From NCBI RefSeq assembly GCF_002252755.1, contig NZ_NHOY01000116.1:1-64000 (forward strand): a stretch of 64,000 nt of DNA. The letters run 5' to 3'. How positions within the stretch are numbered: the first letter of the stretch is position 1; each line of letters begins with the position of its first letter. Below are positions 12,406 to 56,592 of the stretch, in pieces. The notes under the pieces were generated by a model that ran no database searches, had not been told where the DNA came from, and saw only the letters and a list, made by a program, of their open reading frames with translations. This DNA comes from Halorubrum sp. Hd13 (GTDB taxonomy: Archaea; Halobacteriota; Halobacteria; Halobacteriales; Haloferacaceae). The position numbers and the translations under genes were made by a program.

Positions 12406-12414
12406 TTTTTTTTT
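12406..12414 (+). terminator. T-run terminator of the metY-metX operon
   Basis: Nine consecutive T begin 6 bp after the metX stop. Such T-rich runs are the usual archaeal termination signal. The run also immediately precedes structured element A, as a shorter T-run precedes element B at 24096-24101 (minus strand). Confidence 0.6.
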
Positions 12415-12423
12415 AAGTACTAT

Positions 12424-12620
12424 CGTGCGGTCGGCGCGCGCCTCCGAGTGGCCGGCAGGCCACGAGGAGCGCGTGCGAGGGAGTCCGCGGCCGCCGCCGG
12501 CGGCCGCGGCAAGGCTGGGGAGGTGCGAGGTGCCGTGCGCAGCGGGGCAGGGCGGGACTCGAAGGGACAGTCGCCGGCGGCTCCGCCGCCGGCTGGGGCT
12601 TTGGCGGTGTTCACCGTCGT
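12424..12620 (+). ncRNA. candidate structured RNA, copy A
   Basis: This is non-coding sequence sharing five ordered blocks with copy B (23824-24091, minus): a GGCGCGCGCCTC block (12432-12443), CGAGGAGCGCGTGCGAGGGA (12463-12482, identical), AGGCTGGGGAGGTG(C)GAGG (12512-12530), a GGG(C)GGGACTCGAAGGG-type block (12544-12570), and CTGGGGCTTTGG (12593-12604, identical). Between blocks lie hairpins: TGGCC/GGCCA (12449-12462), an 11-bp stem at 12485-12509, and a 9-bp stem at 12573-12593. Copy B has hairpins at the same three places with different sequences, so pairing rather than sequence is conserved. It lies 24 bp after metX on the same strand. CGGTGTTCACCG (12605-12616) could form a further hairpin. 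Promoter and function unknown. Confidence 0.6.
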
Positions 12621-23823: not shown

Positions 23824-24091
23824 GATGCGGTGCCCACGTCCAAAGCCCCAGCCAGCGAAGCGGACGCACGCTCGCTGCGGTCCTCAGTCGCTCGCTTCGC
23901 TCGCTCCCTGTGGTCCTTGCGTCGCCTCCGCCCGCTTCGCTGGCTGCCCCTTTGAATCCCACCCCGCACAGCACCGCAGCCTCACACCTCCCCAGCCTCG
24001 CCGCTCGCGCTTATCAGCGCTCGCGGCGTCCCTCGCACGCGCTCCTCGCGGCCGCCGATGGCGGCCGCTCTGAGGCGCGCGCCACCGCATC
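23824..24091 (-). ncRNA. candidate structured RNA, copy B
   Basis: Read on the minus strand, this 268-nt element is closed by a perfect 9-bp terminal helix (24083-24091 with 23824-23832). Inside, in order, are the five blocks shared with copy A: GGCGCGCGCCTC, CGAGGAGCGCGTGCGAGGGA (24029-24048), AGGCTGGGGAGGTG(T)GAGG (23980-23998), GGG(T)GGGATTCAAAGGG-type (23944-23965) and CTGGGGCTTTGG (23840-23851). Hairpins lie between them: 8-bp stem 24049-24067; stem 24000-24027; and a 12-bp stem (23932-23943 with 23852-23863) that encloses an extra ~68 nt absent from copy A. It lies 43 bp after the pccA stop on the same strand, preceded by TTTTAATTATG. Confidence 0.62.
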
Positions 24092-24133
24092 ATAATTAAA
24101 ACGCCGTTTCGCCGTTTCGTCGTGGTCGCCGAT

Positions 24134-37668: not shown

Positions 37669-39054
37669 ATGTCACGTGACAACAGCGCAAGTTCGGAGGA
37701 CCGACTCACCCGTCGCCACTACGTGGCCGGCGCCGGGTCCCTCGCGACCGTGGGGATCGCCGGCTGTTCCGGCGGTGGCGACGGCGGCGACGGGAGCGAC
37801 GGGAGCGACGGAAGCGACGGAAGCGACGGCAGTGACGGAAGCGACGGCAGTGACGGAAGCGACGGGAGCGACGGCGGCTCCGGCGACCCCGTCGAAGTGC
37901 TTCACGGCTGGACCGGCGGCGACGGCGCCGCGGCGGCCGAGGCGCTCGAGGAGGCGTTCAACGAGGCCCACTCCGACGTCGGCCTCGAGATGAACCCCAT
38001 CGGCGGCGGCGGCAATCAGAACCTCGACGCCGTGGTCGCGAACCGGCTCCAGAGCGACGACCCGCCGGGGGCGTTCGCCAACTGGCCCGGCCCGAACCTC
38101 CTCCGCTACGAGGGCGTCCTCGGCAGCGTCGACGACGTCTGGGAGGAGAACGACTTCGAGGACGTGATGGTCGAGGAGGCGATCGACCTCCACAAGCAGG
38201 GCGGCAGCTACCGCGCCGTGCCGCTCGGTTCCCACCGACTGAACTGCCTCTTCTACAACGTCTCCGTCGTCGAGGACGCGGGGATCGACGTCGACTCCCT
38301 CAACAGCCCCTCGGCGCTCATCGACGCCTTCGAGACGGTCTCCAGCGAGACCGACGCGATTCCGATGACTCACGGGATGTCCGGCACGTGGACGACGACG
38401 CAGCTGTGGGGCGCCGTGATGCTCGGCGAGAACGGCTACCAGCCGTATATGGACTTCCTCAGCGGTGAGGGCGACGAAAGCGCCGTCCGTGCGGCGTTCG
38501 AGCGGACCGCGGAGATGCTGGAGAACTACATCAGCGACGACGCGTCTTCGATCGGTCTGACCCAGTCGAACCAGAACATCATCAACGGCAACGCCGCCTT
38601 CATCCACCAGGGCAACTGGGCGGCCGGCGCGTTCCGGAACGCCGAGGACTTCGAGTACGAAGACGACTGGGGCTTCAAGACGTTCCCCGGAACCGAGGGC
38701 ATGTACACCCTCCACTTCGACTCGTTCCTCTACCCGGCTGACAACCCGACGCCCGAGGCGTCGAAGACCTGGGAGGCGTTCGTCGGCAGTCCGGAGGCCC
38801 AGATCGCGTTCAATCAGTTCAAGGGGTCGATCCCGACCCGGACGGACGTGAGCATGGACGAGTTCGGTCCGTACCTCCAGGAGACGGCCGAGGACTTCGC
38901 CAACGCGGAGTACCGGCCGCCGAACCTCCAGCACGGGCTCGGGGTCCCCTCCGAGACGATGACGGCGCTCAACGAGGTCATCTCCTCCGAGTTCACCGGC
39001 CCGTACAACGTCGACGCGGCGACGCAGGGCTTCCTGGACGCGGTGTCGAACTGA
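37669..39054 (+). CDS. ABC transporter substrate-binding lipoprotein (sugar type)
   Basis: A 461-residue extracellular solute-binding protein. The Tat signal is LTRRHYVAGAGSLATVGIAGC, with the lipobox Cys in IAGC. A tether of nine GSD repeats (37792-37872) follows, then a family-1 solute-binding fold: VEVLHGWTGGDGAAAAEALEEAFNEAHSDVGLEM near its start and FIHQGNWAAGAFRNA in the hinge. It heads an operon with two permeases and an ATPase and captures the substrate, probably a sugar or sugar derivative, at the membrane exterior. The exact ligand cannot be predicted. Confidence 0.92.
   Translation: MSRDNSASSEDRLTRRHYVAGAGSLATVGIAGCSGGGDGGDGSDGSDGSDGSDGSDGSDGSDGSDGSDGGSGDPVEVLHGWTGGDGAAAAEALEEAFNEAHSDVGLEMNPIGGGGNQNLDAVVANRLQSDDPPGAFANWPGPNLLRYEGVLGSVDDVWEENDFEDVMVEEAIDLHKQGGSYRAVPLGSHRLNCLFYNVSVVEDAGIDVDSLNSPSALIDAFETVSSETDAIPMTHGMSGTWTTTQLWGAVMLGENGYQPYMDFLSGEGDESAVRAAFERTAEMLENYISDDASSIGLTQSNQNIINGNAAFIHQGNWAAGAFRNAEDFEYEDDWGFKTFPGTEGMYTLHFDSFLYPADNPTPEASKTWEAFVGSPEAQIAFNQFKGSIPTRTDVSMDEFGPYLQETAEDFANAEYRPPNLQHGLGVPSETMTALNEVISSEFTGPYNVDAATQGFLDAVSN
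37792..37872 (+). repeat. 9-bp coding tandem repeat in the lipoprotein tether
   Basis: Nine units of the form GG(G/A/C)AG(C/T)GAC encode Gly-Ser-Asp repeats directly after the lipobox. The silent variation between units argues that the peptide is selected as an acidic flexible tether. Confidence 0.85.
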
Positions 39055-55914: not shown

Positions 55915-56592
55915 TCAGTAGACTAGTTCGAGGTCACCGTCGTTCATGTACAGCGTGCGCGCGGCGACGTTGACGGCGTGATCGCCGATTCGTTCCAGGT
56001 CGCGTATCGTGAGCAGCAGCCGCGACACGTCGTCGAGCAGCCGCTCGATCTCCCAGCGATCGGGATCACTGGCGATCAGCTCGCGAACGACCGCGTCGCT
56101 GGCGTTCTGACACGCCGCGTCGAGCGCGTCGTCGCGGTCGGCGATCGCTCGACACGCCTCGGAATCGGCGTCGGCGTACGCGTCGACGGCCGCCCGGAGC
56201 TGACCGGTGACGGTCTCGCCGATCCCCCCGACCCGGACGTCGGAGACGACGTCCGCGCTCCCGGCGAGGGCGTACCGGGCGAGGTTCGTCGCGAGGTCAC
56301 CGACCCGCTCCAGATCCGTGAGTATCTTGAACGACGCGACCACGAAGCGGAGGTCCGCGGCGACGGGCTGCTGGAGCGCGATCAGCTCGACGCAGTCGCC
56401 CTCGAGGTCGAGGTACCGCCGGTTGACGCGTTCGTCGCCCTCGATCACCTCGCGGGCCAGCCCGCGGTCGCCGCCTTCGAGCGCGTCGAGTGCTCGCCGG
56501 AGCTGCCACAGCACGCCGTCCGCCATCGACTCTACGTCGGCCCGCAACTCGTCCAGCGACTCGCGGTACGCTTCGCGGGACACGGCGATCAC
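55915..56592 (-). CDS. phoU: phosphate signalling protein PhoU
   Basis: A 225-residue two-repeat helical bundle. Conserved metal-binding-type motifs are [19 protein letters not shown] and [21 protein letters not shown]. The start is GTG 56592, overlapping the pstB stop by 4 nt. PhoU restrains the Pst transporter when phosphate is plentiful. It is followed by an AbrB-PhoU fusion 2 bp downstream. Confidence 0.94.

Follow-up and report, generated by a model that had tools for sequence, protein, structure and literature searches.

A class-wide, intergenic family of strand-specifically folded haloarchaeal elements that probably acts as RNA

Structured, dispersed, non-autonomous elements are a known kind of genome constituent. 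REP and BIME sequences are present in hundreds of intergenic palindromic copies, favour the 3' ends of genes and stand singly or as inverted pairs, and HEARO and other large structured multi-copy RNAs are structured, dispersed and partly mobile, as is the family described here. The PATEs of Haloquadratum insert without duplicating their target (PMC3119063). The window analysed in this study, a stretch of 64,000 nucleotides of Halorubrum sp. Hd13, contains two loci, A and B, that were originally predicted to be a two-copy structured RNA. We propose that both are members of a class-wide, intergenic, dispersed and strand-specifically folded non-autonomous family, which probably acts as RNA. The family appears undescribed, and its novelty apparently lies in the class-wide conservation of its fold.

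Anatomy and extent of the family

The blocks on which the original prediction was built are present in both copies, namely 20 identical bases (CGAGGAGCGCGTGCGAGGGA), 12 identical bases (CTGGGGCTTTGG) and a third block that is similar but not identical (AAGGCTGGGGAGGTGCGAGG in A, GAGGCTGGGGAGGTGTGAGG in B), with intervening hairpins whose stem sequences are unrelated in the two copies. Homologues were searched with two covariance models, R1, built from 22 own-genome copies and covering the 5' domain and the start of the third domain (P3), and R2, confined to P3; the E-values of both are rough. Copy A, which consists of the 5' domain and a shortened 3' domain, extends from position 12425 to 12604 of the plus strand (R1, 113.6 bits, E 1.4e-22; also seen by blastn against its own genome). 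The extent first proposed, 12424-12620, holds for this core, yet degenerate 3' modules (GGTGTTCACCG..., CTATTTATAGCCGAGCGG) run on from 12604 to about 12706. The copy is preceded by an AT-rich box (TTTTTTTTTAAGTA, 12406-12419) and comprises P1 (12434-12478; GCGCGCGC/GCGCGTGC with a bulged C, TCC/GGA and a tandem G.A), with its inner hairpin GTGGCC/GGCCAC (GTGGCCGGCAGGCCAC, 12448-12463), and the P2 hairpin (12485-12509; CCGCGGCCGCC/GGCGGCCGCGG, a stem unrelated to that of copy B), followed by the G-rich block AAGGCTGGGGAGGTGCGAGG (12511-12530), conserved in the family alignment, and by a degenerate P3 (12550-12603; R2, 38 bits, E 2.4e-5) in which a short palindrome replaces the inner part.

Copy B lies on the minus strand, with its AT-rich box (GTTTTAATTATGA) at 24090-24102, the 5' domain and the start of P3 at 23922-24090 (R1, 96.3 bits, E 6.1e-19) and the full P3, the part conserved throughout the class, at 23841-23964 (R2, 97.3 bits, E 2.4e-16). 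The third domain is complete in copy B and mostly lost in copy A. After A and B, the next-best R1 match in the window reaches 20.7 bits; this match (38192-38350) and one of 16.6 bits (56045-56165), both on the minus strand, look like chance. The z-score of the RNA fold energy is -6.8 for copy B and an ordinary -1.3 for copy A alone, and energy is therefore not used as evidence.

Within the genus, the order of parts is AT box, P1, GAGGGA, P2, GAGGCTGGGGAGGYGYGAGG, P3 and 3' modules. The AT box often reads TTTATAAA and is located 13-21 nt 5' of the element. In P1, GCGCGYGC pairs with GCRCGCGC, leaving one C bulged, and is followed by a 3-bp step that covaries, a tandem G.A and a hairpin that is variable in sequence. 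At the same columns of P2, some copies have a tandem G.A where others have Watson-Crick pairs. The P3 of this genus has a closing CAAAG/CTTTG and GGG opposite GGG. Four GGG tracts are kept in 29 of the 30 congener copies (found with R1) and in 18 of the 28 own-genome copies. The 3' modules measure about 51-57 bp and are sometimes tandemly repeated; at two loci of the congener G153 (L226:18795 and L237:11478) such a module (GGCTGGGGCTTTGG..., about 51-57 bp) forms about 6-7 near-perfect repeats of locus-specific sequence, a minisatellite adjoining the folded element. At L016, L017, L103, L105 and L115, the helix tips and junctions carry inserted small perfect palindromes, for example GAGAGCGAAGCTCTC and GGCGGCTTCGCCGCC, and identical cassettes recur across loci and species. 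The P3 core itself, about 107-126 nt long, runs from GGGnGGGAnTgAAAGGGG through a long stem, conserved internal loops and the returning stem to GGGGCTTTc, and its internal loops hold a tandem G.A, an A.A/A.C mismatch and CGACGYAAG opposite GCAGCGAG. The genus of the window adds a 5' domain (P1, P2, GAGGCTGGGGAGG) to P3.

The notion of a two-copy element had to be given up, as R1 yields 80 matches at E<=0.001 in the same genome; blastn with copy A recovers about 40 of them at E-values under 1e-10. R1 detects 30 clear copies in 400 kb of a congener, the weakest at 55 bits, and nothing further down to E 0.05, and across the genus a chromosome carries about 80 to more than 200 copies. A pattern derived from distant R1 matches was used to find P3 in other genera, among them Haloarcula, Halosimplex, Natrinema, Natronococcus, Haladaptatus, Halorussus, Halobaculum and Haloparvum. 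R2 matches 238 of 292 Halobacteria genomes, representing 64 of 77 genera, with no match in about 240 genomes of the phylum outside Halobacteria. The inferred multi-copy haloarchaeal family is thereby strongly supported, and covariance-model searches of haloarchaeal genomes, suggested along with it, return many homologues with compensatory changes. In two multi-contig genomes, every match among those listed falls on one large contig per genome. Spread by plasmids or phages was rejected, since the plasmid and phage collections gave three matching plasmids, including one from Halorubrum, and no phage.

Searches of Rfam 15 at gathering score covered the window, both copies and 12 related loci, and matched nothing but one tRNA in the window, in line with the original remark that SRP RNA, RNase P RNA or a known riboswitch was not recognised; given this absence, the family is also missed by routine annotation. 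The open-access literature, to which our search was limited, yielded no description of the family. The 22 unassigned conserved Halobacteria ncRNAs reported from a halite metatranscriptome may include the P3 family (PMC7002113).

Covariation and the folded strand

In the 22 own-genome copies, 79 double-change cells are observed, against 28±3.6 in shuffled and at most 17 in slid controls, and the pairs of P1, P2 and P3 covary far beyond both kinds of control, in own-genome as well as in congener copies. For 49 P3 sequences from many genera, the number of double-change cells in a hand-drawn structure is 344, compared with 107±8 after shuffling and at most 86 after sliding. The pattern used to pick these sequences prescribes the GGG tracts, whose invariance is therefore partly a product of that choice. 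RNAalifold predicts nearly the same pairs on these sequences, 25 out of 29 having double changes. In these alignments compensatory change maintains the fold, and the original claim of a selected, strand-specific nucleic-acid structure is strongly supported by covariation beyond the controls.

Alternatively, the copies could form an ordinary MITE family in which replication template switching keeps palindromes perfect and the fold is unselected. Palindromic cassettes that recur at helix tips, stem sequences that are swapped wholesale and the MITE-like ends and duplications described below would suit such a process. It would, however, be expected to leave perfect pairs, whereas P3 shows class-wide conserved mismatches and loops, including the tandem G.A and the A.A/A.C mismatch, each in 47 of 49 sequences; the conservation of these non-pairs argues against palindromes kept by mutation alone. 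The almost identical unpaired blocks among orthologues at the metX site and the excess of G.T over A.C pairs (42:15 and 21:4) speak against it as well, and we judge it quite improbable. The same excess identifies the sense strand as the folded strand.

Persistence at fixed sites and mobility

Downstream of metX, the site of copy A, a match usable for alignment is present in 18 of 30 congeners, own genome counted. The remaining congeners have a remnant or nothing, which shows that single copies are dispensable, and element-free sites with the same next gene have gaps of 57-157 bp. In the 18 orthologues, 91.3% of the cells pair and 88 cells have double changes against 31±4 in shuffled controls, on an alignment that was fitted to the model. 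Orthology in combination with covariation indicates that the copy is old, that its stems turn over with pairing kept and that it can be lost; copies stay at their sites through descent and are eroded by deletions.

With genes predicted by a simple codon-usage script, no overlap exceeds 80 bp for the 54 own-genome and 117 class-wide copies considered. Divergent gaps are avoided. As originally noted, A and B are both situated downstream of a same-strand stop codon, and there is a preference for convergent gaps, which hold 21 of 54 own copies; both observations would suit a terminator, an mRNA stabiliser or another structured 3' element that acts in cis for the upstream gene. The stop-codon position is nevertheless no rule of the family: between co-directional genes the element is sense in 11 cases and antisense in 14, and in a congener only 19 of 30 copies have a same-strand upstream gene. 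Being intergenic, free of orientation bias and, among the matches listed for two multi-contig genomes, located on one large contig each, the element is not a part of the metX 3' UTR, and the 3' element reading, first offered as an option, is disfavoured as very improbable. A chromosome-polarity signal was rejected too, because strands (47 runs, 50 expected) and spacing (CV 0.98) are random over the 98 listed copies of G153.

P3 is mobile in some genera, in the form of MITE-like units that have IS6-type ends and duplicate 8-9 bp of the target. A unit of about 375 bp occurs four times in genome G240, inserted in unrelated flanks; the four are mostly more than 99% identical (one pair 95.6%), and each has two P3 domains head to head about a dyad. 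They end in somewhat variable versions of GTAGTGTTYAGATAAGC and of its complement, and the same ends bound units with a single P3. P3 units with IS6-type inverted ends were found in G240, L406 and L422, with exact target duplications of 8-9 bp in four cases (CGTCCGGCC, CACGCGGCG, TCGAACCG and TCAGCGAC). These ends also bound a 694-bp element in G153 (L229:19100-19793), whose ORF of 185 aa matches the IS6 transposase family with E 3e-25, a score that stays under the curated cut-off of the model because the ORF is short; the element appears to be a short, broken IS6-type insertion sequence. Around the copies of the own genus (A, B and relatives), IS6-type ends were not found; older ends could have eroded. 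Membership in a transposon end, named beforehand as a finding that would speak against the original prediction, is thus partly borne out, for the 3' domain within the IS6-ended units of some genera.

The near-identical pair L437/L438 of G153 shares about 85 nt of upstream similarity with indistinct borders. Together with L227, these copies are embedded in a larger repeat, whose ends resemble CGGGAGTGAGTA...TACTCCCG and TGAAACAGCCGGTCG... and which may be a further mobile unit that carries the element. Divergent P3 pairs about 26 bp apart, which flank a short dyad resembling AGCC..TTGrCCAA..GGCT, occur in several genera (L312, L318, L328, L329, L331, L364, L366). Other P3 subfamilies carry other flanks, indicating that P3 rather than the ends is the constant part.

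RNA or single-stranded DNA, and the described systems

A conserved strand-specific fold implies that a folded strand is recognised. In the proposed mechanism, the elements would be non-autonomous and mobilised in trans, and after insertion a host or element factor would recognise the folded strand, so that the fold would be conserved although the flanking ends vary between lineages. Since RNA is the usual case for covariation of this kind, we favour RNA as the probable folded strand, with single-stranded DNA as a distinctly weaker candidate, and a transcribed ncRNA is plausible. This reading is limited by the spread route in the own genus, where IS6-type ends were not found, by the dispensability of single copies and by the placement of the AT box: with standard TATA-to-start spacing, a box about 14 nt upstream would place the transcript start inside P1. 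A promoter-driven gene is thus a weak candidate.

The main rival, which we hold to be unlikely, is a single-stranded DNA hairpin recognised in replication, conjugation or transposition, like IS200/IS605 ends and PATEs. It would account for the strand-specific fold and the mobility of P3 units. Apical loops are predominantly 3 nt long, frequently C-GNA-G, with no GNRA or UNCG tetraloops among the loops listed, which fits DNA hairpins better than typical RNA, and the class-wide form has no evident promoter as judged by eye; these loops, the lack of orientation bias and the want of a well-placed promoter keep this rival in contention. The LE/RE hairpins known to us are far shorter and less elaborate than P3, however, and none of 30 tnpB loci has the element abutting the tnpB 3' end. 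The abundance, divergence and palindromic nature of haloarchaeal PATEs (PMC3119063) would suit the rival; the recent P3 units, unlike PATEs, have target duplications and inverted ends, and an IS200/IS605-derived PATE was rejected on the duplications.

To return to RNA, a broader joint reading is offered tentatively and as somewhat doubtful: the family may be a new class-wide haloarchaeal RNA of elaborate fold, in which the four GGG tracts possibly form a hairpin-bridged G-quadruplex that the molar potassium of the cytoplasm would favour. With up to about 200 copies on a chromosome, it would have been mobilised repeatedly by transposon ends unrelated to one another, as a domesticated or selfish structured RNA element of a kind that may be undescribed in archaea. 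If RNA, few structured RNA elements in any group of archaea would be as numerous as this family, whose host genomes have been sequenced for two decades; if DNA, it would be a folded strand under conservation that spreads in the manner of a MITE and afterwards stays at its sites. In both cases, the models make it testable in culturable and transformable haloarchaea.

Compared with the described systems, the family shares with PATEs and SMRs that they are transposase-free, numerous and palindrome-rich haloarchaeal repeats, whereas a conserved P3-like fold is not among the features in the part of the source considered (PMC3119063). HEARO differs in that the P3 family has no nuclease gene at the expected place and no Rfam match. 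A HEARO-like omega-RNA, left over from a TnpB/IscB system after loss of the nuclease gene, would suit a multi-copy, structured, dispersed family in genomes with tnpB genes; however, just 4 of the 30 tnpB loci have the element within the flanks examined, none of them at the tnpB 3' end, and this disfavoured reading is hardly credible. With MITEs, the P3 units have in common that they are short and non-coding, with inverted ends, 8-9 bp duplications and ends shared with a transposase-bearing element. They differ from them in that P3 is common to subfamilies with different ends and that no IS6-type ends were found around own-genus copies, and to our knowledge MITE interiors are not normally conserved class-wide with a covarying structure, as P3 is. 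REP and BIME sequences resemble the family as numerous intergenic palindromic copies, but REP units are short single hairpins, whereas P3 exceeds 100 nt and carries conserved internal loops.
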